Origin: Sulfurimonas sp. endosymbiont of Alviniconcha boucheti
Lineage (GTDB): Bacteria; Campylobacterota; Campylobacteria; Campylobacterales; Sulfurimonadaceae
Length of the DNA: 36,903 nt
Assembly (NCBI GenBank): GCA_021766785.1
Contig: JAICBP010000083.1
Span: forward strand, 69,221-106,123
Direction of reading: 5' to 3'
Positions 1 to 36,903 of the stretch are shown piece after piece; position 1 is the first letter of the stretch; each line of letters starts with the position of its first letter. The position numbers and the translations under genes were made by a program. The notes under the pieces were generated by a model. The model searched no databases. It was not told the origin of the DNA and saw nothing but the letters and a program-made list of their open reading frames with translations.

Positions 1-20
1 GGATCAGGATCAGGATCAGG
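1..20. repeat. GGATCA microsatellite in the lipoprotein linker
   Basis: Three tandem GGATCA units plus GG at the window edge encode alternating Asp-Pro on the minus strand. The tract may continue outside the window. Because the unit is 6 bp, changes in copy number would keep the reading frame and only alter linker length. Confidence 0.75.
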
Positions 21-170
21 ATTTGGATTCGGAATAGGGTCAATAGTTATATTCTTCTCAACGGGTTTTTTGTCTGCTATTGGAGGGGTAGTATTGCTAT
101 CTCTATTACAACCACTCATTCCTATTCCGAGCACAAGAAGTGCCGCCAATATTTTCTGTTGTAAGTTCAT
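1..170 (-). CDS. Surface lipoprotein, 5' part only (runs off the window)
   Basis: Only the first ~57 codons are inside the window; the rest lies beyond base 1. The protein starts MNLQQKILAALLVLGIGMSG and then has Cys21, a lipoprotein signal peptide with an ISGC-like lipobox (MSGC), so export and lipid anchoring are expected. After the Cys comes a polar linker ending in repeated Pro-Asp (DPDPDP). I chose the second ATG (168-170) because it sits 6 nt after AGGA, exactly as in the paralogue starting at 5676; an ATG immediately upstream at 171-173 is possible. The signal peptide, Shine-Dalgarno region and upstream bases are nearly the same as in that paralogue, so the two belong to one family. 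The function of the mature part cannot be judged from what is present. Confidence 0.8.
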   Translation of the reverse strand, partial: MNLQQKILAALLVLGIGMSGCNRDSNTTPPIADKKPVEKNITIDPIPNPNPDPDPD

Positions 171-200
171 CATGTTTCCTTTTTTTGATGTTGAATAAAA

Positions 201-229
201 ATTATATCATATAATTTTATATTTTACAA
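201..229 (-). promoter_or_regulatory. Sigma70-type promoter of the partial lipoprotein gene
   Basis: Read on the minus strand there is TTGTAA, a 17-bp spacer and TATAAT, about 30 bp upstream of the start codon at 170. The spacing is ideal and the -10 is perfect. It lies in the gap between this gene and the upstream cbiA stop codon, so the lipoprotein probably has its own transcript. Confidence 0.6.
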
Positions 230-273
230 TAATTAGCAGTTTAAAAACATTGCAAATCAAGATTAAGAACTTT

Positions 274-1542
274 TTAAACTAAACAGATAATATTTCCCAA
301 ACGCCACATTGTATGCAGGTAAGTAGCTTTAATCTTATCCTGAATATAGCCTCCACCCTTAGCATTTTTTTTACTGACTTTGTAGAGTTGTATATCTGCT
401 TTTGGAGCTTGTACTATTTTAGAGTAGTGAAAAGCATGTCCTCTAATTATCTCACCGCTCTTTAGTTCACATTTATAATACCCTAATCGTTCAGGTTTGC
501 TTGTTAACTCAAATGTTATAGGTAAAATGCCACTCATCTTTTTATCATCACAACTCTTTCCTAAGTAGATAAGCCCCGCACACTCTGCATATACTTTTTT
601 TGTTTTAGCATGATTGAGAAGAGAGTTTTTAAAGTTCTCTGAGTGAGCAATACAACTATATGCCTCTTCAGTTTCAACATATCCTCCTGGGATAATGACT
701 ATATCTGCTTCACTTGGAATAGTCTCATCCTTTGTAGAGTCAACTAGCACTACTTTTTTATATAGATCTTTGAGATACTCTAAGTTATCATAGTAAACAA
801 AAGAGAAGTTTTTATCTTTTATTAGTACACATGTCTCCTCTTTTTGTATGACTTTTGTAAAAGGATACCCGTTTATATTTACATCTTCTATCTCCATAAT
901 AGACTCTAATATATCTAACTCAATATGCTCTAGTATCTCGTGGCTTATCTCTTGCATCACTTTAGTATCTAACTCTTTTAGATCAAGACCTAAATGTGTG
1001 CTACAAAGGCTTTTTAGTCCTTTTTGTATCCAGCCACAAACTTTTATACCCTTTACCTCTTTTTCAAGATATTTTTTCACAAGGTCATAGTGCATTTGCG
1101 ATGATACTTTATTGAGTATTACCGCTTTTATCGTGTTATCTAAGCGGAACTCTTTCATTCCCTTTAACACAGCGGCTACTGTTATATAACTCCCTCCTGC
1201 ATCAAGAATAAGTAAAGAGGGTAAATGCAAAGTTCGTGCTATATCATAAGCGCTAGCACCCTTATCCATACCATCATAAAAGCCCATAACACCCTCTACT
1301 ATTGCCACTTCTTTGTTCATATAATTTGCAAATATCCACTTTAATTGCTCTTCATTCATCATATAGCCATCAAGGTTTACAGAGGGTGTCTCTGCTATCT
1401 TCTGGTGAAACTGTGGATCTATAAAATCAGGTCCACACTTATAGGGTCGTACACTCTTTTTGAAGTGCTGAAGAAGTGCCATGGTAAGTAGTGTTTTGCC
1501 TTGGTTAGAGGCGATGGCTGAGATTACTAATGCTTTCTTCAC
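274..1542 (-). CDS. cbiA: Cobyrinate a,c-diamide synthase CbiA/CobB
   Basis: The enzyme amidates the a and c side chains of cobyrinic acid (hydrogenobyrinic acid in the aerobic route), using glutamine and ATP, in the cytosol during cobalamin synthesis. The 422-residue protein has the two domains of the family: an N-terminal ATPase with a modified P-loop (SNQGKT near residues 12-17) and the CGPDFIDPQFH motif near 36-46, then a class I glutamine amidotransferase domain with YAECAGLIYLG, whose Cys near 322 is the predicted nucleophile. The start is GTG (1540-1542), with no strong Shine-Dalgarno site. It is divergent from cbiK across a 46-bp gap. The C-terminus (YLHTMWRLGNIICLV) is shorter than the usual HLHF-containing tail, so a late frameshift is possible but not shown. 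Confidence 0.9.
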   Translation of the reverse strand: MKKALVISAIASNQGKTLLTMALLQHFKKSVRPYKCGPDFIDPQFHQKIAETPSVNLDGYMMNEEQLKWIFANYMNKEVAIVEGVMGFYDGMDKGASAYDIARTLHLPSLLILDAGGSYITVAAVLKGMKEFRLDNTIKAVILNKVSSQMHYDLVKKYLEKEVKGIKVCGWIQKGLKSLCSTHLGLDLKELDTKVMQEISHEILEHIELDILESIMEIEDVNINGYPFTKVIQKEETCVLIKDKNFSFVYYDNLEYLKDLYKKVVLVDSTKDETIPSEADIVIIPGGYVETEEAYSCIAHSENFKNSLLNHAKTKKVYAECAGLIYLGKSCDDKKMSGILPITFELTSKPERLGYYKCELKSGEIIRGHAFHYSKIVQAPKADIQLYKVSKKNAKGGGYIQDKIKATYLHTMWRLGNIICLV

Positions 1543-1552
1543 TTTTTTTGCC

Positions 1553-1558
1553 TATAAT
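1553..1558 (+). promoter_or_regulatory. -10 element for cbiK in the divergent cbiA/cbiK gap
   Basis: A perfect TATAAT lies 30 bp upstream of the cbiK ATG. The 46-bp gap between the divergent genes must hold both promoters or one must start inside a neighbour. No convincing -35 and no cobalamin riboswitch were seen; the gap is far too short for one. Confidence 0.4.
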
Positions 1559-1588
1559 TTTAAATTAATTTTACACTATGGATAATTT

Positions 1589-2425
1589 ATGAAACGGTAT
1601 AGACATTATAACAAAGAGAAAGCAATAATTCTCTCTTGTTTTGGATCAGTAATAGAGCAAGAGAAATATCTGGCATTTGAGAAGTTTATACAAGAGAGTT
1701 TTTCTGATACTCCTGTTTTTACAGCATTTAGCTCAAAGATGGTTATAAAAGAGCTCGCAAAAAAGGGTGAGGTATATAAGAATCTCCCACAAGTAATGGC
1801 TGATGTAGATATGGCAGGATATAAACGCTATATCATTGTAAGTGTTAATATCTTCCCTACTGATGAGCATGAGGTGCTTACTCGTATGGTCAAAGGTTTC
1901 CGTATATTCTCTCTTGCTAACATCCGTTACTCTGCACCACTTCTTTACAAAACCAAAGAGACATCAAACTATCTCAACTTCCTTGATGCAAAAATTCGCA
2001 AAGGAAATAGTACTATCATCAACCTCTATATTATTCACGGCGTTCCAGTGCTTAATCTTGGTGGTCTTGAAGCGGTCAACTATACTGCTAACTTTTTAAA
2101 AAGGATAAATGAGAGAAATCTGATATGTTCTCTTGAGGGAGAGTTTCCATTTTTTGCTATTAAAGATACTATAAGACGTGACATTCTAAAGTTCACAAAT
2201 GGTGATAAAAATGCAAAAGTTCAGATAGTACCGATGCTTTTAGTAAGTGGCAATCACTACGATAAAGATATGCAAGAGATATGTAAAGAAGTGGGTGAAT
2301 ATTGTGATGCGAGCATTGTAAAGTCATTTACACAAGATAAAAAGTTTAATCTCATAGAACAAGAGAGAGTAAGAGAGATTTTTAAAGAAAATATATCTGT
2401 AGAGATGAAAAAGTTAGGACTTTAG
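1589..2425 (+). CDS. cbiK: CbiK-type sirohydrochlorin cobaltochelatase
   Basis: The enzyme inserts cobalt into sirohydrochlorin (precorrin-2 side) at the start of the anaerobic cobalamin pathway. The 278-residue protein matches the CbiK chelatase fold: N-terminal IILSCFGS, an AFSSKMVIKEL segment near residues 50-60, IFPTDEHEVL (the I.PG.EY motif) near 89-98, YIIHGVPV near 148-155 with the likely metal-binding His (usual MGHG), and PMLLVSGNHYDKDM near 216-229 (usual P.L.VAGDHA..D), which carries the second conserved His. It pairs with cbiA, transcribed away from it. The replacement of MGHG by IIHG, and of the Asp in AGDH by Asn, makes it a divergent member, so another chelatase substrate cannot be ruled out. 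Confidence 0.8.
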   Translation: MKRYRHYNKEKAIILSCFGSVIEQEKYLAFEKFIQESFSDTPVFTAFSSKMVIKELAKKGEVYKNLPQVMADVDMAGYKRYIIVSVNIFPTDEHEVLTRMVKGFRIFSLANIRYSAPLLYKTKETSNYLNFLDAKIRKGNSTIINLYIIHGVPVLNLGGLEAVNYTANFLKRINERNLICSLEGEFPFFAIKDTIRRDILKFTNGDKNAKVQIVPMLLVSGNHYDKDMQEICKEVGEYCDASIVKSFTQDKKFNLIEQERVREIFKENISVEMKKLGL

Positions 2426-2484
2426 AGATTGTTGTCTTGACTTATTGGGGTAGTATATTTATAAAACTCACAGGAATCGGTACC

Positions 2485-2503
2485 ATACTTTTGATAAAAG
2501 TAT
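2485..2503. terminator. Inverted repeat between convergent cbiK and lipoprotein genes
   Basis: A perfect 8-bp inverted repeat (ATACTTTT-GAT-AAAAGTAT) lies 60 bp past the cbiK stop. It is followed on the plus strand by TCCTTTATAAG, a poor U-tract. It may end transcription from either side, but the evidence is only the symmetry. Confidence 0.3.
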
Positions 2504-2557
2504 TCCTTTATAAGTCGAATCCGCCTAAGTTTATATCTTTCCCTTGAAAAATTTGCC

Positions 2558-2576
2558 TCCCCGCTTATCACGGGGA
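2558..2576 (-). terminator. GC-rich hairpin past the FISUMP lipoprotein gene
   Basis: TCCCCG-CTTATCA-CGGGGA forms a 6-bp GC-rich stem in an AT-rich gap, 26 bp past the minus-strand stop codon. On the minus strand a run of seven T precedes the stem and GGCAAATTTTTC follows it, so it is not a textbook terminator. Confidence 0.35.
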
Positions 2577-2601
2577 TCAAAAAAATAATAATACTATCGC
2601 A

Positions 2602-5600
2602 TTAGTCTTTTATACAACGGACAGAGAACCCTCGCGCTCGGTAGTAGTAGCTATTTATGTTCACCATATTTGAATTAAAGGCCATGCCATGTGCATCGTC
2701 TCCATGAACTGAACCAGTCCAGTAATCGCCGTTGATTCCCTCGTAGTACACTATGCCGTCATTGTATTTACGGAAGCCGGCCGCAGTCAGTTTTAAGCCA
2801 CTTGAGAGAGCACCTGTACGATCTTGTGAGCTCCAAGTTTTTGACTCTTGATAGAGCTCATTATTGGCATCTTTTGCTTCATTTGGATTTAATGGCAGTC
2901 TGTATCCTGTCGGACAGACATTGTTTGCGCTTGATTCACTCGCCCATAGGGTATTATCTCTGTTTACTCTCCAATCAGCGCTTGGTGTTGTGATAAAGAG
3001 TGAATTAGATGGATTATCAGCTTCTGTAGATATTTGACCGTATCTTCCAGGTTTTGTAGATGTTGTGCCGTATTTTCCAGCTCCTGCAGCACCACTTGTC
3101 CAGTTGATTAGCTCATGCCCATCCGCTTTTCTTCCCCATTGGAAGAGTGAACCGTAAGCTTTATAATCATTAATTGCCGTAGCTTGTCGCGTGGGGTTGA
3201 AAGCAGAGCTATTTATATTTGCATACTCTGCTCCTAGGTTATTGCTTAGCCAAGTTCTTCCTGTGATTGGGTTAGTTACAGGCATATAGACAAATCTATG
3301 CTCATATTTATTATTTGTCTGTACATTAAAGTTTCTGTCTAGTATTCCAGGCAATACTTTAAGTGTAGCTGTACCGGTAGAGCCTGTACTATCTGTCGGG
3401 TAGTTAAATGTAGCTACAACTTTACCTGCTTCATCATCTTCTATATCTAGTTTTTTAGCATTGTATGTAACATTTGTAGTAATAGTTGCATTAAATGTGC
3501 CACTTCCCACTGCAAGGCTTAGTTGCTCTGACCAGCTAAATGTTGCAACTATATCTGCCACACCATCTTCTGTATCTGCCGTAGCTATAGTATATGTTTT
3601 ACTATATGCCGGTAATGTTGTTGCCTCATTTGAAACAGTGTATGGAATACTTAGAATCAGAGTGTTTGAACCACTATCTATGACACCTTGGATATCTATA
3701 GCAGAACCATATGGTGTTTGGTCATGTATGCTCACTACATTTGCTTCTAAACTTGGGTTGTCAATCGTGATATTAGTAGGAAAAGAATCATTTTCTCCCA
3801 TTGTAAATTGTTTTATACAGCGGACATAGTTTCCATCTACTCGGTAATTGAAAATGACATTGTTTGTACGCACCCTATTTGAATTAAAATCCATAGTATG
3901 AGCATTAACTCCATAGGCTGAACCAGTCCAGTAGCCACCGAGATCACTATTACCACTTACGGTGCCATTGGTGCCATCATGAATTCCAACCCTAACAAGT
4001 TTTAGGTTACTTGTTAGGGCACCGACCATATTTTTAGTGCTCCAAGTATTTGTCTCTACATACCACTCATTTTCACCATCATTAGCTTCATTTGGATTAA
4101 GTGGTAGTCTGTACCCTACTGGACAGACATTGTTTGGACTTGATTCACTTGCCCATAGTGTATCATCTCGGTTTACTCTCCAATCATGTTGTGCATTTGC
4201 TTCTATGATATAGAGTGAACCAGATGGATCATCGGCCTTTGTAGATGTTGTACCGTATTTTCCAGCTCCTGCAGTACCACCTGTCCAGTTGATTAACTCA
4301 TGTCCATCTGCTTTTCTTCCCCACTGAAAGAGTGAACCGTAAGCTTTGTAATCATTACTTGCCGTAGCTTGTTGCGTTGGGTTGAAAGCAGAGCTATTTA
4401 TATTTGCATACTCTGCTCCAAGATTGTTGTTTAGCCAAGTTCTTCCTGTGATTGGGTTAGTTACCGGTAAGTAGAGGAATCTATGCTCATATACACCATT
4501 TGTTTGTACATTAAAGCTTCTGTCCGGTATTGCAGGTATGACTTTAAGATCCAATCTCCCCATAGTGAAATCCTTATCTGTTGGATACGAAAGTGTAGCG
4601 GCTATATATCCATTCGCAGTTATATCTAATTGTCTAGCATAATAAATATTACTGCCATTGACAGGCACGATCTTTGCATCAAAATAACCATCTCCTGCAG
4701 GTAGAGTTGCATTACCCCAGTGAAGTGCTACAACAACTCCGCTCTCGTTATTGCTTGTGTTGCCAGCATCAATAGTAAAGTGAGGACTTGTAAAACTGTT
4801 AAGAATTACACTACTATCTGCGTGATAAGGCACTTTAACCAACAGACCATTTGACGCTATACTTCCACCTACATTTACACCATGATTATCGTCAAGCATA
4901 CTTACCAAAGTTGCTGTAAGTGTCGGTGCCGTAATAGTAAGTTCTTTTGAAAATGAAGCAGGCATATTGTTTACTATGCCTTGAATAGCACTTGTTGAGT
5001 TTACGGCTCCGCCACCTATAGCTGTTATATGAAGTGCCCCATTGACTCTATCTAAATTATCTGCTGTTACTCCCGTTACACCTGCATTTAAATAGTCTTG
5101 TACATTTGGTGCTAGTTTTGTGTCATCACTTGCATATGTTGTGATTTTTCCTATTGCTTTTGCTTTTGCAGCGTCTGCTGCCGCTGCCGCATTTGCCACA
5201 TCAACTACTGTTTGAATCTCTGTTGCTATTGGGTTTGTTTTATCGGCAAATGTTCCTGCTTGCAGTGCTGCTGTATAATCAACACCATTAATCGCTCTGC
5301 TTACACCGTCAATCGCATTGATTTCAGCAGCTGTTACTGCTCTACCATCTGCATTTCCAGCAATATCTTCTATGATATGATCAATACTATTATTAGTATT
5401 ATTAAAATTACTTTTGGTGACACTGTTATTGATGCTATCATTAGTATCATTGTTGGTGATATTATTCTCCTCAGGGTTAGGGTCAATAGTTGTACTCTCC
5501 TCAGGATTAGGATTAATAGTTGTATTCCCCTCTGTTTTATTATTATCTGTTGTCTTGTTCTGTTCAGTTTTTTTATTCACTATTTGAGAGATAAGGTTGT

Positions 5601-5899: not shown

Positions 5900-6269
5900 C
5901 AAATATAATACCCCTAAAAATCAAGTCAATTTTCTAAAAGATTTAATTTCATTCTCACCTGTTACTTTATGCCACACTTTTAGATAGTCAAGATAAACAT
6001 TCATTGATTTTTGATAGTTTCATAATTACTGATATAGATATTATCGTGTTTAAGCGTTCTGAAAAATCTCTCAATGACAATATTGTCAATACTTCTACCG
6101 CTGGCGTTTATCGAGATTTGAATCTTATGATCTTGAAGTAGTTTTGTTCGGCTATATATGTTCTACCTTTTTTCTACTCATTTTTTCATCTCCTTAATTC
6201 TTGTCATTTTATCTTTTTTGAAAATAACTTACTGAATTGGTATCTTAGATTTTAGGGGCATTATATTTG
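5900..6269 (-). mobile_element. IS3-family remnant with terminal inverted repeats (MITE-like)
   Basis: The 370-bp element is bounded by 20-bp inverted repeats, CAAATATAATACCCCTAAAA at 5900-5919 and, on the opposite strand, CAAATATAATGCCCCTAAAA at 6250-6269 (19/20 identical). Inside, on the minus strand, are AAGGAG and a short start MSRKK (an orfA-like beginning), then directly a fragment typical of the C-terminal end of an IS3/IS150 transposase (SGRSIDNIVIERFFRTLKHD, then NIYISNYETIK), and another frame (MNVYLDYLKVWHKV) ending in TGA right before the left repeat. The middle of the transposase is deleted and frames are broken. No clear target-site duplication flanks it. The right repeat overlaps the helicase 3' end. 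Confidence 0.75.
5922..6140 (-). pseudogene. IS3-type transposase fragment (rve C-terminal end)
   Basis: Read on the minus strand, about 40 codons encode HKIQISINASGRSIDNIVIE and then RFFRTLKHDNIYISNYETIK, the pattern seen near the last catalytic Glu of IS3-family DDE transposases (GRAxDNIxxERxWRTxKYExxY). It breaks at a TGA and continues in another frame as NVYLDYLKVWHKVTGENEI. The rest of orfA and orfB is missing, so it cannot transpose itself. Confidence 0.75.
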
Positions 6270-9200
6270 GGTTTATACATAGATAATTTGCATAAGGGAA
6301 GGTGCCTATTTTTATCATTTTTTTCATCAAACCATTCAATAATATTCTCAATTGTAATATCCACTACAGAATAGCCTTGTTCTTCATAAGTAAGAATATC
6401 CTTTTGCATCTTCTTTGATAGCTGAGCGATTACTATGTCATTTTGAACTATATGATACGGTTTATCCTTTGTTTGTTCACGGATATATGCCTGTGAGCCT
6501 GCAATTAAATCAATTCCTTGTGCATCATGCTGAGACAAAAAACTCATATATAAATCTGATAACCCCATAACTAAAGTCTTTTTATTAGGTTCAGTATATA
6601 TTTGATTATTAATGATACTTCTAACCGATGGAGTTGAGTTAGATCTAAAGTATTTTTTATCAGTTACAATAATTAATTTTTTCTTTGCCCGTGTCATTCC
6701 AACATAAAAAAGTCTGAAAAAATCATCATCCAATATCATTTTGTGATCTACTACTACTAAAATAACGGTCTCAAACTCTTTACCTTTTGCTTTATGTATG
6801 GTCGATACTAAAACTTTATTGTAAGTAGAGATAAGTTGTTCTGAAGATATTTCATCTAAGTAAATATGCCAAAGAGATGGTGTATAAACCTCATGGTCAT
6901 CTATAAAGCCTTTCACTATCTTATAGAGTATAGATAAGTTCTTAGATCCACTATATCGTTGTTTTACTTTTTCGTAGGATTCCCATAAAAGATTTTCATT
7001 AAGTTCTTTATCTTTTAATAGTCTATCTAAAAATTTAATCTCAACTAAACTACTAAGTTTAAATCCATCATTATCCAATAGATAATTTACAGCAATATTC
7101 TCATCATGAAGTAAAGCGTATATATCTGCCACTTCATCATTTTTAAACGCCAGTACAGCAAGACTTTTTTTGGCTTCAAGGTGCTCTTTCACTTGTTCAA
7201 CTGCTGGCTGTTGCAAATATTGTGAGTTACAATTCACTATTATAACTTCACCTTGATATTTAGAATGAGATACTAGTGGATGCTGTTTGTATCTGATAGG
7301 AATATTATGAATAAATTTATTTGAATATTCTACAATACTTTGGGTACTTCTAAAGTTCGTTAAAAGTTCATACTGAGCATATGATTTTTCCTCTTCATCA
7401 TTAAGTCCAAACTCTGTTTCAAACTCTTGGATGAATTTAATATCTGCATCATTAACATTAGATAAGATACACTGATCATCATCGCCAACGGCAATTAATC
7501 GTTTTTTATTCTCATGAGCATTAGATAGTGCTTTTATAAGCTCAAATCCATCTGAATTAATATCTTGATACTCATCTAATACTATAACTGTTTTAAAAGG
7601 TATATCTATCTTGTTCTCGTTAATTTGCTGTGCAGCTAAAGATACAACACTATGAAGTATATTTTCATCACTACTTGCTTCTCTCCCTATCAATTGAAGA
7701 GAAAATCCATGGAATGTAAATATATCTATATCATAAGCTAGTTGACCTATCAACTCAAACAGTCTAGATTTAAACTCCATCATAGCGGTACGAGAGTATG
7801 TAAGCATTAAAAACTGATCGGCTTTAATATCCTCTTGCAAGATAAGGGAAGCTATCTTGTGAACTAGAACTTTTGTTTTACCACTTCCTGGTCCAGCTAA
7901 GATCATTATTGCTTGGGATTCTTTATCATCTATAACTCTCTTCTGTTCATCGGAAAGACTATTAAAAATTTTATTGTAACGATACTCTGTCATAGGTCTT
8001 TTAAATTTTTCTTTTAACTCACCATACTTATTGACAAACATTCTATATGAAAGTGTAAAATAATCTTTCATGAAAGTTTGTGCTTGTTTAGAGTTTTTAA
8101 TAAGCCGCTCTGAATATTCACCAACTATATGTATAGATTCCATTTTTCGCTGGTAGTATGGTTCAAGTCTGGATTTATACTCAAGTTTTGTATATTTTTT
8201 ATTTGGAGCGAGCATTTTATCCATCTTCTTAATATTCATTGGTGCATAATAAATAAACCTGCCATTACCTAGTTCTAATATCCTAAGTTCATGTAAGTGA
8301 AGTAGTACTTTATCAATAATTTTTAAACTTTGATCCTTTTTTAGATTTAATACTTTTTGAAGTTCGAGCATAGAAAATTCAACTCTCTCTTTTGTGGTAG
8401 TTTTCTTCTCTGAAAGATTTGCTGATAAGTATTCAAGAGTCTTGAATCCAATGGAATGCTTATAATCAATGATACTTTTTACTTTATTGGCATCTACAAA
8501 CTCAAAATACCAAAGATCTTTTTGTCTATCAAGTCGGTTAAATTTAAACTGATGTTTATTCCCTATCCAGCTTTTTAGTAATACCTTTATTATAGAGCTA
8601 ATATTTTCATTTTTAAAATTTAGAGTTGAATCATCTAGCAGTATTTGATTTAATTCGCTCATCCGAATTGTTTGACTATGCTCTTTAATTAAATACTCGT
8701 ACAGTATCTTTTCAATTTTGGTATAACTTTGATATATTTTTATACTATCTTGGCTTAGTTTTAAACTCAAATCTTTTGCATCTGAAATAATTTTCATCTC
8801 TTTGAGTTCTAATACTGATTGTGTAACTACTTCATGGGAGTACCCAAGTATTTCAGTTAGTTCATCTAGTTGAACAGCTTCAGATTTTCCACTACCTAGC
8901 AGAGTCTGTAGGACACGAGACAATCTTATTTTTGACTCTTTGCTATACTTTTTAGTTGTACACTCTTCTTGTAAAATTGATAGAGAATCCTTCGCTACAG
9001 CATCAGCATAATACTGTACTCTATTTCTAGAACGTTCTACATAATTTTCTCTCTCAAGTTCTAGTAATGCTGTTTTTACTTTCATATCATAATCACTAGA
9101 CTTATCCTCTGTATCCCAACCAGCTTGCATGGCTATCTCTCTCGTTGTTAATCTAACTGGATTACGTTCATCCTTTTTAAGAACTCTAAAAATAGCATTG

Positions 9201-11083
9201 ATTTCATCTGGATTTATTTTTGAACGGGTTAAAGTAGTAAAATGCTTATCTAAATCACTTTGCGAAAATAGCAATGGGCATGAAGCTCTGATATTTTGAT
9301 CTCTTGCACCACGACCTGCTTCTTGAGAGTAATTTTCTAATGATTCTGATATTTCATAGTGAATTACATTTTTAATATTTGGCTTATCAACTCCCATTCC
9401 AAAAGCTGTTGTAGCGACAACTATATCTATATCATCATTTATATACTCTCTTAAAATTTGCATTTTAATATCTGTATCTAATTTAGAATGAAATGATTTA
9501 ACATTTTTACCAGTATCTAAAGCTAATTGTTCAGCAATATCATCACATTTTTTTGTTGATGATGGAATATATATAAGTGTTGACCCTGCTTTGGTATTTA
9601 TAAGCTCTAACAAGCTTGTGTATTTAGTTTTGTCACTATTTAACTCGTAACCTTCATAATCAAGATTTTTCCTTTCAGGCACTGCAATATAACGATTCAT
9701 TTTAAGATTTAAAGCAGACTCTATATACTCTGTAATATCATCCATTACTTTAGGTTTAGCAGTAGCTGTAAAGCAAGATACTGGAATATTCTCTTGGAAA
9801 GGTTTTTCTTTTAATAAGTCATTAATAAATGCACCAATGTAAAAATAGTCATGTCTAAAATCATTCCCCCATGTTGATAGACAGTGCGCTTCATCAATTA
9901 CAAATCTTTCAATTACACGATTTTTAAGTAAATTAAATAAAGAACTTGATCTAAGACTTTCTGGAGCTATATATAATATATCAGCATCACCATTAACTAC
10001 TTTCTCCATACTATCAGCTCTTTCGCTTGGAGACATATAACCACTCAATGCTACAGCTTTATAATTTGCAACGGTTTCATGAAAACTATCCATGTGATCT
10101 TTGATAAGTGCTTGAAGTGGAGAGATAACTACAGTAAGTGTTTTAAGCGATTTTGCTTTAATAATTGATGGAAGCCAAAATGTAAAAGTCTTTCCTCCAC
10201 CTGTAGGTAATATAGCAAGAAATGATTCATTCTTAAGTGCTGCAGTAACTATCTCTTTTTGAGAAATAGTTGTACCTGTTTCAAGAGTAGCGTCATGCCT
10301 TGGAAAATCCCTAAATGTACCAAATCCAAAAATATCTTTAGCTATTGAACTTAACTCATCTACAGACTTATCATAATCAAAACATAATCTTTCTTGTAAT
10401 GATGTTATCTCCTTATAATCATAAAGAACTTTAGGTGGTTGTGCATTTACCTCAAGTTCTGGCATTCTAATAGCCAATATAAAAGCAAGTTCAATTCTGT
10501 GAAAGGATAAGGCTTCTTTTAAAACATCTGGATTACGAATAATAGTTTTAAAGGCATTAAGAATTGAGCCTAGGAGAATAGTATCACTTAACTCTTCAAA
10601 TATATTTTCATGAATAATGAATTTAAAAAAGCCTTTAAATAGTTCTTCTTTTTTGAGTAAGGTATAAAAAATATTTCTTTGTAATATTGGTAGTGTTTTA
10701 AACTTATCAATTGATCGTAATAATAGTTCTTTTGAAAGTTTGGCGTCTTGAACTGGGTTATTTAAAAAGTTGTCTTCACTTTTATAGTTCTTAGGGAGGT
10801 TATGAAAGGTTTTTTCATTGAATAGGAGTAATGAGATAGGAAGAGTATCTATAAAGGTTTTATTTTGAAGTAGTGTACCTATTGAACTTGTCTCTAATAT
10901 TTTTTTATCAAAGGCAATAAAATTATGACCAGCAATATACTCTGTAGGAGCATATTTAATATACTCAAAGGCTTCTTTAATCGAACTAGTTTTTAATTCA
11001 TCTTCTTTATAAACTAGGCCTAATTCTTGTATATTTCCACTAAAAGAAGCTTCTATATCCATGTAAATAGGTTCTGAAATCAT
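6245..11083 (-). CDS. DEDD exonuclease - RecQ-like helicase - UvrD-like helicase fusion
   Basis: The 1612-residue protein joins three DNA-processing parts. Residues 1-125 resemble a DEDD 3'-5' exonuclease: D9/E11, GHNFIAFD (53-59), NPVQDAKL (Asp113). Residues ~270-610 are an SF2 RecQ-like helicase: LPTGGGKT (~294), DEAH (~397), FTATA, ATTAFGMGVDKPN and QEAGRGARD (~591). A long helical/winged-helix region follows. Residues ~1040-1480 are an SF1 UvrD/PcrA-like helicase: AGPGSGKT (~1064), LDEYQD (~1171), GDDDQCI, TNFRST, STIHKAKGKEFE (~1430), FYVGMTRAK (~1463). The zinc-binding Cys set of classical RecQ is not evident. It stands alone, with its own promoter. Repair or defence are both possible. 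The last codons and stop lie in the inverted repeat of the IS remnant. Confidence 0.9.
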   Translation of the reverse strand: MISEPIYMDIEASFSGNIQELGLVYKEDELKTSSIKEAFEYIKYAPTEYIAGHNFIAFDKKILETSSIGTLLQNKTFIDTLPISLLLFNEKTFHNLPKNYKSEDNFLNNPVQDAKLSKELLLRSIDKFKTLPILQRNIFYTLLKKEELFKGFFKFIIHENIFEELSDTILLGSILNAFKTIIRNPDVLKEALSFHRIELAFILAIRMPELEVNAQPPKVLYDYKEITSLQERLCFDYDKSVDELSSIAKDIFGFGTFRDFPRHDATLETGTTISQKEIVTAALKNESFLAILPTGGGKTFTFWLPSIIKAKSLKTLTVVISPLQALIKDHMDSFHETVANYKAVALSGYMSPSERADSMEKVVNGDADILYIAPESLRSSSLFNLLKNRVIERFVIDEAHCLSTWGNDFRHDYFYIGAFINDLLKEKPFQENIPVSCFTATAKPKVMDDITEYIESALNLKMNRYIAVPERKNLDYEGYELNSDKTKYTSLLELINTKAGSTLIYIPSSTKKCDDIAEQLALDTGKNVKSFHSKLDTDIKMQILREYINDDIDIVVATTAFGMGVDKPNIKNVIHYEISESLENYSQEAGRGARDQNIRASCPLLFSQSDLDKHFTTLTRSKINPDEINAIFRVLKKDERNPVRLTTREIAMQAGWDTEDKSSDYDMKVKTALLELERENYVERSRNRVQYYADAVAKDSLSILQEECTTKKYSKESKIRLSRVLQTLLGSGKSEAVQLDELTEILGYSHEVVTQSVLELKEMKIISDAKDLSLKLSQDSIKIYQSYTKIEKILYEYLIKEHSQTIRMSELNQILLDDSTLNFKNENISSIIKVLLKSWIGNKHQFKFNRLDRQKDLWYFEFVDANKVKSIIDYKHSIGFKTLEYLSANLSEKKTTTKERVEFSMLELQKVLNLKKDQSLKIIDKVLLHLHELRILELGNGRFIYYAPMNIKKMDKMLAPNKKYTKLEYKSRLEPYYQRKMESIHIVGEYSERLIKNSKQAQTFMKDYFTLSYRMFVNKYGELKEKFKRPMTEYRYNKIFNSLSDEQKRVIDDKESQAIMILAGPGSGKTKVLVHKIASLILQEDIKADQFLMLTYSRTAMMEFKSRLFELIGQLAYDIDIFTFHGFSLQLIGREASSDENILHSVVSLAAQQINENKIDIPFKTVIVLDEYQDINSDGFELIKALSNAHENKKRLIAVGDDDQCILSNVNDADIKFIQEFETEFGLNDEEEKSYAQYELLTNFRSTQSIVEYSNKFIHNIPIRYKQHPLVSHSKYQGEVIIVNCNSQYLQQPAVEQVKEHLEAKKSLAVLAFKNDEVADIYALLHDENIAVNYLLDNDGFKLSSLVEIKFLDRLLKDKELNENLLWESYEKVKQRYSGSKNLSILYKIVKGFIDDHEVYTPSLWHIYLDEISSEQLISTYNKVLVSTIHKAKGKEFETVILVVVDHKMILDDDFFRLFYVGMTRAKKKLIIVTDKKYFRSNSTPSVRSIINNQIYTEPNKKTLVMGLSDLYMSFLSQHDAQGIDLIAGSQAYIREQTKDKPYHIVQNDIVIAQLSKKMQKDILTYEEQGYSVVDITIENIIEWFDEKNDKNRHLPLCKLSMYKPKYNAPKI

Positions 11084-32071: not shown

Positions 32072-32665
32072 ATGGCTAGGATGACTAAAGAAGAGAGAAA
32101 GACAACTATAATTTCTGCTGCTTTACAATTATTTTCAGAGCGAGGTTTTTATATCACCACTATTCCAGATATTGCCAAAAAAGTTGGTATGAGTGTTGGT
32201 AATTTTTATAACTATTTTAATTCAAAAGATATTCTTGCAAAAGAACTTATTATATACATCTCTGAATATTTAGGAAGAAATATTCGTGTAATTAATGAAA
32301 AAGAGAGCTCAACAGAAGAAAAAATTTATGAAATAGTCTCTATGTATTTCAATATGGCAGATGAAGAACCTGAAATGATAGAATATTTTTTAAGAGTTTA
32401 TCTCTCAAATCGTGAAATATTTGGGGATGGATGTGAGGGGATGCTTTGTGTATCACCTTTTGTTACAGAGATGATGATGTTTTTTAATGATGGTGTGGAG
32501 TGTGGTAAGCTGCATAATCAAGATTTTTTTTCTGCATTTGGACTTTTTATGGGCTATCTTGGCGGTATGGTTTTTCTTTTCGGAGAGAAGATTCTTCCTG
32601 AACCATTAGAATGGTATAAAGAATCAATTTCACAAAATATATATAATGCACTCAAAACAAGATAA
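32072..32665 (+). CDS. TetR/AcrR-family transcriptional regulator
   Basis: A 197-residue one-component regulator. The N-terminal TetR domain (about 5-60) has AALQLFSERGFYITTIPDIAKKVGMSVGNFYNYFNSKDIL with the helix-turn-helix and the conserved YxYF. The C-terminal ligand/dimer domain is Met/Phe-rich and has Cys138 and Cys143 (GDGCEGMLCV) and Cys162 (near VECGKLH), which could sense metal or redox, though this is a guess. Its 3' end overlaps the hydrogenase small-subunit gene by 20 bp, so the regulator and the hydrogenase-like pair are made together. A TetR-type palindrome before hydA is the likely target. Confidence 0.9.
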   Translation: MARMTKEERKTTIISAALQLFSERGFYITTIPDIAKKVGMSVGNFYNYFNSKDILAKELIIYISEYLGRNIRVINEKESSTEEKIYEIVSMYFNMADEEPEMIEYFLRVYLSNREIFGDGCEGMLCVSPFVTEMMMFFNDGVECGKLHNQDFFSAFGLFMGYLGGMVFLFGEKILPEPLEWYKESISQNIYNALKTR

Positions 32666-33551
32666 AAAGCCATCTATTATATGGTTTCAAGGTCTCACTT
32701 GTAATGGTAACACACACTCTTTCTTAAATCTTGAGAACTTAGAGAAGCTTTTAGATAAGTTTGAACTCTTATCTCACCCTACCCTTCCTTCAACTCAAGA
32801 CTTTAAAACTATTACAGATTGTACTTTAATCTGTGATATTTTTATATTTGAGGGTACTTATGATCCTCTTATGAAACGAAATAATGTATTAGTATCTAAC
32901 ATAATAGAGCATTATTCAAAATATGCAAAATATATTATAGCAGCAGGCTCATGTGCTAGTTTTGGAGGTATCTTTAGATCAAGTGCTCCGCAGAGAAACA
33001 GTGGAATACTTTTTGTTGAACAAGAAAAATCTGGACCACTTTTAAGCTATGAGAGAAAAGTTATTAATATCTCTGGTTGTCCACTACACCCCCAATGGCT
33101 TTCATATACTTTAAATATGATAGAAAAAGGAAACAACATAGAGATCGATTCTCTACATCGTCCAATAGAACTCTATAGTAATCTAGCGCATCATGGGTGT
33201 ACAAAAAACGAGTATTTTGAGTGGAAAGTAGATACGGAGAATTTTGGAGAGAAAGAGGGATGCCTTTTCTATAAGCAAGGATGTCGAGCACCAATGACTC
33301 ATGCCTCTTGCAATAAAATATTATGGAATGAAGTGAGCTCCAAAACAAGAGTTGGGACACCTTGTTTTGGCTGTACAGAACCAAATTTTCCTCGCTCAAA
33401 TCTTTTTAGCACAAAGACAAATATGTCTATACCAGAAGATGTACCACTAGGAGTTCCAAAACGTAACTATTTAACAATCACTGGAATAGCGAAAACTTTC
33501 CATATTAAACGACTAGAAGGAAAACTTATTGATTACAAAACAACTGATTAA
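32646..33551 (+). CDS. [NiFe]-hydrogenase small subunit, cytosolic HupU/HoxB-like
   Basis: The 301-residue subunit carries Fe-S clusters that take electrons from the NiFe site. It has no Tat signal, so it stays in the cytosol, like sensory (HupU/HoxB) and group 2 hydrogenases. Cluster ligands visible: C19, C103, C145 (proximal), H182/C185/C206/C213 (distal), C222/C240/C243 (medial). Asn22 (CNGN) replaces the second proximal Cys. The spacing C206-C213 has one residue more than the usual CLYxxGC. The gene overlaps tetR by 20 bp and the large-subunit gene by 23 bp. Whether it senses or consumes hydrogen cannot be settled from sequence. Confidence 0.85.
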   Translation: MHSKQDKKPSIIWFQGLTCNGNTHSFLNLENLEKLLDKFELLSHPTLPSTQDFKTITDCTLICDIFIFEGTYDPLMKRNNVLVSNIIEHYSKYAKYIIAAGSCASFGGIFRSSAPQRNSGILFVEQEKSGPLLSYERKVINISGCPLHPQWLSYTLNMIEKGNNIEIDSLHRPIELYSNLAHHGCTKNEYFEWKVDTENFGEKEGCLFYKQGCRAPMTHASCNKILWNEVSSKTRVGTPCFGCTEPNFPRSNLFSTKTNMSIPEDVPLGVPKRNYLTITGIAKTFHIKRLEGKLIDYKTTD

Positions 33552-34827
33552 TCAAATAGAAGGTGAAGCAACTATCTCTTTTGATATCAAAGATGGTGTG
33601 GTAGATTTTGCGACTATTGCATTTCCCCATTTTCGTGGTATAGAATCTATTTTAAAAAGAAAAGATGCTTTAGATGCTTTAGTGATTACACCTAGAGTTT
33701 GTGGAATATGTGGACATGCTCACCTAATGGCAACAGTCCGTGCCATAGAAGATGCCTATAAAAATGCAGGCTATCGAGTAGAATTAAGCAAAAAAGTTGA
33801 AATAATTAGAGAATTTACATTGGTAATGGAGATAATTCAAAATCACTTTAAGTGGATCTATTTAACAATTATCCCTGAAATATCAAAATTGATTAAACCT
33901 AATCAAAAGCAAACGCCACTAAAAGGTGCTTATGCCGCAAGTATTGCTTCTAAAGCAATTGCAATTTTTGCAGGGCAGTGGCCACACTCATCATATATGA
34001 TACCTGGTGGAATAACTACAGATCCTACAAATGTTGATATATTAAAGGTAGAATCTTATGTAGATGAACTTATTAATTTTTTTGAAAAAGAATCTATAGG
34101 TATTTCACTTGAAACGTTTCTCTCTTTTAAATCAAACAAAAACTTTGGAGGTTTAAAGAGTGATATATCTTTTCTTGAAAATAATTTGATGAATCTAAAT
34201 ATGGATAAGAAAGGTTTTGCACATGATAGATTTTTAGTTCTTGGTAAACATACATTCTCAAAGCCCTTAAAAATCGAGCAGACATACCCAACGAGTAGTG
34301 ATGTAAAATATGTAAATATTACAGAAGCATACTCTTTAAATCAAGTTTCATATGCAAAAAATGCGCAATATGGAGATATTTTTTATGAAGCGGGTCCTTT
34401 ATCAAGAACAATTTCTAATAATTTACCAATAGTGAAAAATATATATAGAAGATCTAAAGATAGTGCATACACAAGAGTAATGTCCAGAATTTTTGAGCTT
34501 GCAACTCTTTTGCAACATGCTAAAAATTTACTATCAAAAATAGATATTTCTCAAAAATCCTATACACAATGCATGGATATTTCAAAAATTACAGCAAAAG
34601 GAATAGGTGTAGTCGAAGCACCTCGTGGACCTTTACTCCACCTTACAGATATTAAAGATGGCGTTATTCAAGAGTATAAAATAGTAACACCAACACAATT
34701 TAATATAGGTAGTAGTACAAAAGAGAATCCCACACCTGTGCAACAAGCGATGCGAGGTACTACAAAAGAAGAAGCACTCTTTATTTTTCGTACTTTTGAT
34801 GTTTGTTCTGTTTGCACAACACATTAA
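33529..34827 (+). CDS. [NiFe]-hydrogenase large subunit, HupV/HoxC-like, no C-terminal tail
   Basis: The 432-residue subunit holds the NiFe site. The L1 motif is RVCGICGHAH (C58, C61, H65) and the L2 motif is DVCSVCTTH (C426, C429, H432), where Val replaces the usual Pro of DPC. The protein stops exactly at His432, so there is no tail for the maturation endopeptidase. This is known for regulatory hydrogenases (HoxC/HupV type). The start is TTG (33529-33531) with AGAAGG 8 nt upstream. The N-terminal INQIEGEA replaces the usual NRVEGxL. Together with the overlapping small subunit and TetR it forms a three-gene unit. Confidence 0.85.
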   Translation: MITKQLINQIEGEATISFDIKDGVVDFATIAFPHFRGIESILKRKDALDALVITPRVCGICGHAHLMATVRAIEDAYKNAGYRVELSKKVEIIREFTLVMEIIQNHFKWIYLTIIPEISKLIKPNQKQTPLKGAYAASIASKAIAIFAGQWPHSSYMIPGGITTDPTNVDILKVESYVDELINFFEKESIGISLETFLSFKSNKNFGGLKSDISFLENNLMNLNMDKKGFAHDRFLVLGKHTFSKPLKIEQTYPTSSDVKYVNITEAYSLNQVSYAKNAQYGDIFYEAGPLSRTISNNLPIVKNIYRRSKDSAYTRVMSRIFELATLLQHAKNLLSKIDISQKSYTQCMDISKITAKGIGVVEAPRGPLLHLTDIKDGVIQEYKIVTPTQFNIGSSTKENPTPVQQAMRGTTKEEALFIFRTFDVCSVCTTH

Positions 34828-34917
34828 AATTCTAGTTAGTCCGTAATTAATATAAGAAAAATAGAATTTAACAAAATTTTAAAAAAGCTAATATCTGTTT
34901 AAGTTATTCTTATGTAA

Positions 34918-34923
34918 GATAAT
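34918..34923 (+). promoter_or_regulatory. -10 element of hydAB
   Basis: GATAAT, with a weak CTGTTT 17 bp upstream (34895-34900), is the best promoter in the 134-bp gap before hydA. The palindrome at 34920-34939 overlaps it. Confidence 0.4.
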
Positions 34924-34939
34924 GAATGATTATTCATTA
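34920..34939. promoter_or_regulatory. TetR-type operator candidate before hydA
   Basis: TAATGAATGATTATTCATTA is a perfect 8+4+8 palindrome. It contains TGAATGATTATTCA, close to operators known for TetR-family repressors (for example the TGAATGA/TCATTCA type of Bacillus FadR). It starts in the -10 box and ends 22 bp before the hydA ATG, a position where binding would block transcription. Confidence 0.6.
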
Positions 34940-34961
34940 ACTATAGAAAGAGGAGTTTACT

Positions 34962-36197
34962 ATGACGGATAGAATAGAGGGTGTCAAAAAGCTTTTTACA
35001 TCTAAAAGTGCACGTGTAGAAACAAATAGAGGTGATGCTCATTATGAAAAACTGTTTCAGTCATGTCTAGCAAGAGTTGAGGAGTTAAAATCACAAACAC
35101 CAATTAATAAAAGATTGGATATTAGTGATGTATTAGAGACTCAAGGTGTTAATAGAAGGGATTTTATGAAATGGGCAAGTGCTGTTACAGGTATGCTTAT
35201 GTTACCTGCTTCATTTACCCCTTTAGTGGCAGATGCAGCACTACTTATGAACAGAGCTCCAGTTATATGGCTGGAACTTTCTGATTGTGCAGGAAATTCT
35301 GAAGCACTTTTACGTTCTGATGGACCAAAAATTGATGAGATTGTTTTAGATATCATCTCTTTAGAGTTTCATGAGACTCTACAGGCCGCTTCTGGACATC
35401 AAGCAGAGAAGCAATTAGAAGATGCGATACATACTTTTAAAGATAAATACCTTCTTTTTGTAGAAGGCGCGATTCCTATGGGTATGAATGGTCAATTTGG
35501 CACCATTGGTGCAAGTGGTGAAACAATGTATGATCATTTAATGCGTGTTGCTAAACATTCGGCAGCTATAGTAGCAGTCGGATCATGTGCTACATTTGGT
35601 GGTGTACCAGCAGCTTCTCCTAATCCTACAGGGGCAGTTGGTGTTATGGATGTTATAAAAGGAAAACCTCTTATTAACATTCCAGCATGTCCTGCTAACC
35701 CTGCCAATATGGTTGGTGTTATTATTCACTATATCTTAACTGGTCAAGTTCCTGAATTAGATTCACTTTTACGTCCTAAATTTGCATTTGGTTACCGTAT
35801 CCATGATAACTGTGAACGACGTGCACACTTTGATGCTGGTGAATATGTTGAAGAGTGGGGAGATGAAGGTGCGAAAAACAATTTTTGTCTTTATAAAGTA
35901 GGCTGTAAAGGACCTATGACCTTTAACAACTGCTCAATCGTTCGTTATAATGAAGGTGTAAACTGGCCAGTTGGTGTTGGTCGTGGTTGTATTGGTTGTT
36001 CTGAGCCAGATTTTTGGGATAAATATGCATATGAACGCCCAATGGCAGATGCAAATATCAAAGCACCAACAGGTGGTGTTGAAAAGACTGTAGATGAGTT
36101 TGGTTTAGGACTTCTAACAGCAGCAGGTATTGGAATAGGTATCCATGCAGCAGCAAGTATAGTAGCAGGAAAAAAAGAAGATAGAGGGGAAGCATAA
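34962..36197 (+). CDS. hydA: [NiFe]-hydrogenase small subunit, Tat-exported, membrane-anchored
   Basis: The 411-residue subunit belongs to the respiratory uptake hydrogenase. After a ~60-residue N-terminal extension comes a Tat signal, NRRDFMKWASAVTGMLMLP (64-82), ending near DAALL. Proximal-cluster ligands are C109, C209, C243; Asn112 (CAGN) replaces the usual second Cys. Distal and medial ligands are in IHDNC, NFCLYKVGC, NNC and GRGCIGC. A C-terminal membrane helix (about 383-402, GLLTAAGIGIGIHAAASIVAG) anchors it to a cytochrome b subunit expected downstream. GAGGAG precedes the ATG. It overlaps hydB by one base (TAATG). It oxidises hydrogen at the periplasmic side and feeds quinone. Confidence 0.93.
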   Translation: MTDRIEGVKKLFTSKSARVETNRGDAHYEKLFQSCLARVEELKSQTPINKRLDISDVLETQGVNRRDFMKWASAVTGMLMLPASFTPLVADAALLMNRAPVIWLELSDCAGNSEALLRSDGPKIDEIVLDIISLEFHETLQAASGHQAEKQLEDAIHTFKDKYLLFVEGAIPMGMNGQFGTIGASGETMYDHLMRVAKHSAAIVAVGSCATFGGVPAASPNPTGAVGVMDVIKGKPLINIPACPANPANMVGVIIHYILTGQVPELDSLLRPKFAFGYRIHDNCERRAHFDAGEYVEEWGDEGAKNNFCLYKVGCKGPMTFNNCSIVRYNEGVNWPVGVGRGCIGCSEPDFWDKYAYERPMADANIKAPTGGVEKTVDEFGLGLLTAAGIGIGIHAAASIVAGKKEDRGEA

Positions 36198-36903
36198 TGG
36201 CAAAAAAACATATAATAGTAGATCCAATTACTAGAATTGAGGGTCACTTAAGAGTTGAAGCAGTAATCGATGAAAATAACACAATTGTTGATGCATATAC
36301 AGCATCTACTTTATTTCGCGGAATAGAAACTATTCTTCAAGGGAGGGATCCTAGAGATGCTGGTCTTTTAGCTATGCGTATCTGTGGTGTATGTACAGGT
36401 ACACATTATCAAAGAAGTATAGAAGCTGTTGAAGATGCTTTTGATGTAACAATTCCTAAGAATGCGCGTATAGTTCGCAATCTTATACAAGGTGCTCTTT
36501 ATATACATGACCATCTAGTTCATTTCTACCATCTACATGCACTTGATTTTGTTGATGTTGTATCTGCACTTTCTGCTGATCCTAAAAAGACTTCACAAGA
36601 GGCTATCAAGTGGGCTAGTGTAGCTGGTACAAGCCCTTTTATTGAGGGTTCTGGAAAGTTTAAAGAGATTCAAGAGAGAGTAGCCAAATTTGTAAAACAG
36701 GGTCGTTTAGGTATTTTTGGAAATGGTTACTGGGGTAACAAACACTACAAACTTACACCAGAACAGAACCTTATAGGAGTTGCACACTACTTAAAAGCTC
36801 TCGATATTCAAAGAGATTTAGCAAAAATGCAAGCAGTTTTTGGTGGTAAAAATCCACACCCACAATCAATAGTAGTTGGTGGAGTAACTTGTGTTCAAGA
36901 TAT
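36197..36903 (+). CDS. hydB: [NiFe]-hydrogenase large subunit, 5' part (runs off the window)
   Basis: The first 235 codons are present; the 3' end is outside the window. It begins MAKKHIIVDPITRIEGHLRV, with the conserved Glu15, and has the L1 motif RICGVCTGTH (C63, C66, H70) that binds half of the NiFe site. FYHLHALDFVDVVSAL and GRLGIFGNGYWG follow. This is a canonical respiratory large subunit, unlike the HupV-like protein 1.4 kb upstream. It pairs with hydA through a one-base overlap. The L2 motif and any C-terminal maturation tail cannot be seen. Confidence 0.95.
   Translation, partial: MAKKHIIVDPITRIEGHLRVEAVIDENNTIVDAYTASTLFRGIETILQGRDPRDAGLLAMRICGVCTGTHYQRSIEAVEDAFDVTIPKNARIVRNLIQGALYIHDHLVHFYHLHALDFVDVVSALSADPKKTSQEAIKWASVAGTSPFIEGSGKFKEIQERVAKFVKQGRLGIFGNGYWGNKHYKLTPEQNLIGVAHYLKALDIQRDLAKMQAVFGGKNPHPQSIVVGGVTCVQD

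Follow-up and report, generated by a model that had tools for sequence, protein, structure and literature searches.

Does the inverted repeat just ahead of the uptake hydrogenase gene hydA serve as an operator and, if so, for which regulator and in response to which signal? The repeat lies in the window, by which we mean the whole stretch of 36,903 nucleotides analysed from the Sulfurimonas sp. endosymbiont of Alviniconcha boucheti. A sequence-only reading had taken it for a TetR-type operator at the hydA promoter. The features that bear on the question are as follows.

Left of tetR, opposite strand: recA, named from sequence
32072–32665, plus strand: tetR, a TetR/AcrR regulator of 197 aa (Pfam TetR_N, 3.1e-15)
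32646–33551, plus strand: divergent [NiFe] hydrogenase small subunit (Pfam PF14720/PF01058), overlapping tetR
33529–34827, plus strand: divergent [NiFe] hydrogenase large subunit (Pfam PF00374), with RVCGIC and DVCSVCTTH retained
34898–34907, plus strand: -35-like element TTTAAGTTAT, resembling the C. jejuni consensus TTTAAGTNTT and conserved upstream of the operator
34918–34923, plus strand: -10-like hexamer GATAAT, matched in register by TATAGT/CATAAT-like hexamers of relatives
34920–34939: the site as first read, comprising the core plus extended arms, with one central mismatch
34923–34936, plus strand: operator core TGAAT-GATT-ATTCA, conserved before hydA in TetR-linked loci
34950–34955, plus strand: Shine-Dalgarno sequence GAGGAG of hydA, from sequence
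34962–36197, plus strand: hydA, uptake hydrogenase small subunit and predicted regulated gene (TIGR00391, 447 bits)
36197–36903, plus strand: hydB, second gene of the predicted regulated operon, truncated by the window end (PF00374)
Past the window: hydC, a HypF-like gene, hypF, two maturation proteases, a nicO-like gene, hypB, hypD and a hypE-like gene

The site and the hydA promoter

The sequence TAATGAATGATTATTCATTA occupies 34920–34939, and 22 bases separate it from the start codon of hydA. Although it had been described as fully symmetric, comparison with its own reverse complement showed mismatches at positions 9 and 12, so that nine of the ten base pairs match and one does not. The TGAATGA/TCATTCA pattern ascribed to it held in part, the TGAAT/ATTCA core being present but the right arm reading TTATTCA instead of TCATTCA. 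The palindromic symmetry of TAATGAATGATTATTCATTA alone is not above chance, as the window contained four 20-mers with at least 9 of 10 matching pairs, compared with 2.1 expected under a first-order model. In the 2.24 Mb genome, TAATGAATGATTATTCATTA occurs as a single exact copy, and WNTGAATNNNNATTCAWW was matched exactly at the operator site only.

The suggested overlap with a probable -10 element was borne out, in that the operator core and GATAAT have one base in common, the last of the hexamer. The -35-like element resembles TTTAAGTNTT, the -35 consensus of C. jejuni (PMC7755780, PMC3824568). In relatives, TTTAAGTTA is conserved upstream of hydA and, with a TATAAT-like hexamer, runs into the operator core; a conserved Campylobacter-type promoter adjoins the operator. 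The positions of GATAAT and the core place the predicted transcription start, at about 34930, inside the operator. A start region inside the operator is a usual location for a repressor site, and the operator sits over the promoter end, as expected of a repressor site. The product of hydA carries a Tat-like signal, the TAT_signal score being slightly below its cut-off.

The tetR gene lies about 2.3 kb upstream of the site, with the two hydrogenase-like genes in between, and the successive overlaps of these three genes resemble those of a translationally coupled unit. A search for intrinsic terminators between the hydrogenase-like genes and hydA gave none, so that read-through from them into hydABC is possible. 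Elsewhere in the window, on the minus strand at 6245–11083, there is a 1612-aa open reading frame that appears from sequence motifs only to be a fusion of RecQ-like and UvrD-like helicases.

Conservation of the site and its association with TetR

Comparative genomics is decisive for the operator assignment. We gathered TetR-linked loci from relatives and compared them at hydA. TGAAT-N4-ATTCA was found with at most one mismatch in 52 of 53 hydA upstream regions and exactly in 38, counts in which some records may be one organism present in two collections; the corresponding frequencies in shuffled stretches were 1.9% and 0.16%. In nearly all relatives the core stands just ahead of the hydA ribosome-binding site, its flanks being AT-rich and its centre favouring GATT. 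The footprint that had been proposed as a check therefore came out positive, with the site kept in place across many Campylobacterota families.

We also examined 31 relatives that have a hydA relative with a readable upstream region. The site was present upstream of hydA in 21 of the 22 genomes with TetR and in none of the 9 without it (Fisher 5e-7, ignoring shared ancestry). In two genomes (G036 and G022), hydA and tetR lie on different contigs, yet the hydA site is present.

The genome contains three exact cores, one at hydA, one lying 34 nt ahead of nicO and one within a soxY-like gene. The third was discarded as a target, as it is located inside that gene. The second is a conserved core upstream of the nicO-like nickel-transporter gene, which precedes hypB and whose Pfam match (20.1 bits) is below the 27.7-bit cut-off. 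This nicO site was exact in 11 of 13 TetR-positive loci as compared with 1 of 7 TetR-negative loci, one TetR-positive locus having no readable upstream region; genome G010 retains the nicO site without TetR. The sites at hydA and nicO together give a predicted TetR regulon of hydABC and nicO-hypB. Neither this second target nor the hydrogenase pair between tetR and hydA had featured in the sequence-only reading. A genome scan allowing one mismatch returned 33 matches, as against 44 for a reversed control pattern, and since this is not above the control we claim no additional targets. At one locus (L033:12806-13489), a gene for a 227-aa cysteine-containing protein without a Pfam match is divergent from nicO, so that the nicO operator may occupy a shared regulatory region there.

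The regulator itself has an N-terminal helix-turn-helix domain (PF00440, 56 bits against a cut-off of 24) and is 88% identical to its counterpart in S. indica NW8N. A PDB search with its AlphaFold model (pLDDT 86.8) yielded 470 matches at E<=0.001, led by TetR-type regulators and including FadR structures near the top; the predicted overall fold is that of a normal all-helical TetR. On this comparative evidence, the stretch at 34920–34939 is very probably the conserved operator of the TetR encoded at 32072–32665. We infer that the protein binds there and represses: a TetR dimer on TGAAT-N4-ATTCA would lie across the hydABC promoter at its -10 end and start region and so block RNA polymerase. 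Repression of hydABC by TetR is highly probable, and the earlier proposal that TetR represses hydAB but not itself appears well supported by the footprint, by co-segregation with TetR and by the position at the promoter end. Through the second site, TetR would also repress the nicO-hypB operon, which provides nickel supply and maturation.

The hydrogenase pair, the signal and competing explanations

Across 200 genomes of the class, TetR and the hydrogenase small subunit were adjacent in 38, TetR occurred without it in 1, the small subunit without TetR in 0, and neither in 161, these counts ignoring shared ancestry. No Tat signal was found in the tetR-adjacent small subunit. The large subunit retains the active-site cysteines (RVCGIC, CSVC) and, on comparison of its C-terminus with those of HoxC/HupV and HoxG, ends in ...DVCSVCTTH, without a C-terminal maturation peptide. 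Its best PDB match was a hydrogenase-2 chain (7utd, 2.3e-39), and it fell in a clade separate from HoxC/HupV with 100/100 support, in a tree of 14 rows with few references. CxxN in the small subunit was considered as a special trait and dismissed, as Thermus, Runella and the HydA of the window share it. The pair may function like a regulatory hydrogenase, but its membership of group 2b is doubtful on this tree.

The TetR of the window contains a conserved C121-E-G-M-L-C126. Among hydrogenase-linked TetRs, CX4C was present in 64 of 64 and C-x-G-x-x-C in 63 of 64, and CX4C was missing from six unlinked TetR paralogues. The CX4C region (residues 111-130) is the least certain part of the TetR model.

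We infer hydrogen as the signal, and contact between the hydrogenase pair and TetR as its route. TetR would be co-produced with the cytoplasmic pair, which would act as a H2 sensor; when H2 is present, the pair would alter the state of TetR, perhaps via CX4C, and hydABC and nicO-hypB would be derepressed. A sensor is needed before H2 arrives. We favour a sensor over a co-regulated catalyst because the operon of the pair appears to lack the operator. That H2 is the signal, acting through the hydrogenase pair, seems to us more probable than not, whereas a direct route, in which electrons or a conformational change pass from the pair to CX4C in a kinase-free H2 switch, is put forward only tentatively. 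In many Campylobacterota, this operator probably acts as the on/off switch for hydrogen use. Expression data from S. multivorans are partly contrary to H2 as the signal: the hydB transcript rose about twofold with H2 (p 0.224, not significant), and hupL was barely transcribed (PMC5357620). Were TetR equally unexpressed in S. multivorans, hydABC would be constitutive there, but this is a rescue argument.

Three further loci are of note. In G188 (L220, 3263-5465), the TetR carries CX4C and the hydA operator is intact, but a divergent sulfide:quinone oxidoreductase-like gene takes the place of the sensor pair; having TetR and the operator without an adjoining pair, this genome is a natural test case. 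S. paralvinellae GO25, which has been listed as lacking Group 1 hydrogenase (PMC7952632), carries the entire tetR-sensor-hydABC-hypF cluster on a 49.8 kb plasmid (L183, NZ_CP041407.1 22895-40190), where it adjoins a site-specific integrase and the operator is intact. In Runella slithyformis, of the Bacteroidota, two TetR genes lie directly upstream of another hydrogenase pair (L241, pRUNSL01, 1-4063), perhaps an independent pairing.

An alternative is that TetR is a repressor sensing persulfide, sulfur compounds or oxidants via the CX4C thiols, the linked hydrogenase being catalytic; the cell would then shut down hydrogen use when sulfur compounds serve as the donor of choice. The conservation of CX4C fits this explanation, as do the sulfide:quinone oxidoreductase-like gene beside tetR in G188 and the reported repression of S. 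denitrificans hydrogenase activity with thiosulfate (reviewed in PMC6682613). However, it leaves unexplained why TetR is accompanied by the cytoplasmic hydrogenase in 38 genomes and lacks it in one, and the pair lacks the operator that would be expected if it were co-regulated. We consider this explanation unlikely. A nickel or metal sensor, tuning hydrogenase and nickel-uptake expression to the nickel supply, would account for a second target at the nicO-like transporter gene before hypB, its cysteines could bind metal, and nickel regulates the hydABC genes of H. pylori (PMC6682613). Since it likewise does not explain why TetR is almost always linked to the hydrogenase pair, we regard it as improbable.

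The promoter of tetR bears on a further alternative, namely that TetR represses the hupSL-like pair itself and that the hydA site belongs to a different regulator. This was proposed, as far as hupSL is concerned, for S. multivorans (PMC5357620), and the small subunit gene follows tetR and overlaps it. It is nevertheless very improbable, as no exact operator was found upstream of tetR in any of 63 loci, against 52 of 53 hydA promoters with the site, and the hydA site is missing where TetR is missing. Between recA and tetR in the window, no match comes closer than two mismatches, which agrees with the earlier observation that the site is absent there, and autoregulation in this genome was rejected for want of a site at the tetR promoter; TetR here would thus not repress its own operon. 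One-mismatch cores upstream of tetR were found in 8 of the 63 loci, above the roughly 1.2 expected; they lie in a few lineages, in which tetR may be autoregulated. A hint of this is seen in one family (L228, L230, L231 and L232), where the one-mismatch core TGAATATTCATGCA (or TGAATACTCATGCA) stands upstream of tetR. Three TetR paralogues without CX4C and unlinked to hydrogenase (L037:6792, L237:3654 and L036:6735) have the core some 70-80 bases ahead of their respective genes, with one mismatch in L036, which suggests shared DNA recognition and a different signal. An origin of the palindrome by chance, as an AT-rich inverted repeat, is hardly credible: the window does hold four near-palindromes where 2.1 are expected, but conservation, position and co-segregation outweigh this.

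Relation to known systems

The analysis identifies a regulator together with its operator of 14 bp, a nearly obligate partner and two target operons, and the question of whether the group II hydrogenase is a sensor or a catalyst becomes directly addressable. If the link to H2 is true, this would be a kinase-free mode of H2 sensing, and the direct switch, if true, would govern the oxidation of hydrogen in many free-living members of the Campylobacterota. In the open-access literature searched, we found no paper naming the operator, hydA as the target or a link between TetR and the sensor, and no description of a H2-responsive regulator in Campylobacterota.

The Group II hydrogenase treated in passages of two papers on Sulfurimonas (PMC4584964, PMC7952632) is likely the tetR-linked pair described here. 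Its role, H2 sensing or energy conversion, is debated in those passages and called speculative or enigmatic; unlike the present analysis, they assign no regulator, operator or target. S. multivorans apparently has the same arrangement of TetR, hupSL (SMUL_1421-1422) and hydB (SMUL_1424), for which it was suggested that the TetR upstream of hupSL might repress hupSL and that a H2 sensor is missing (PMC5357620). The operator data presented here differ from that proposal in indicating hydA as the TetR target.

The operator of Bacillus FadR, an acyl-CoA responsive member of the TetR family, has TGAATGA/TCATTCA arms as well, and the FadR structures 5gpa and 3whb are among the nearest solved folds. 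In contrast to FadR, the TetR of the window scores 43.3 bits against the 200-bit cut-off of the FadR equivalog, and it has hydrogenase and nickel target genes and the CX4C motif. A further close parallel is HoxBC/HupUV (HoxA-HoxB-HoxC-HoxJ of C. necator pHG1), which is likewise a cytoplasmic [NiFe] pair encoded near an uptake hydrogenase and a nickel transporter, and in which the HoxC/HupV large subunit also ends at its last CxxCxxH motif (DPCMVCTVH), without a maturation peptide. The pair described here differs in having CxxN for CxxC in the small subunit and in forming a separate clade in a small tree. Its partner is a TetR one-component regulator and not a histidine kinase with an NtrC-type activator, genes for which were absent from the neighbourhoods examined around the TetR-hydrogenase pair.
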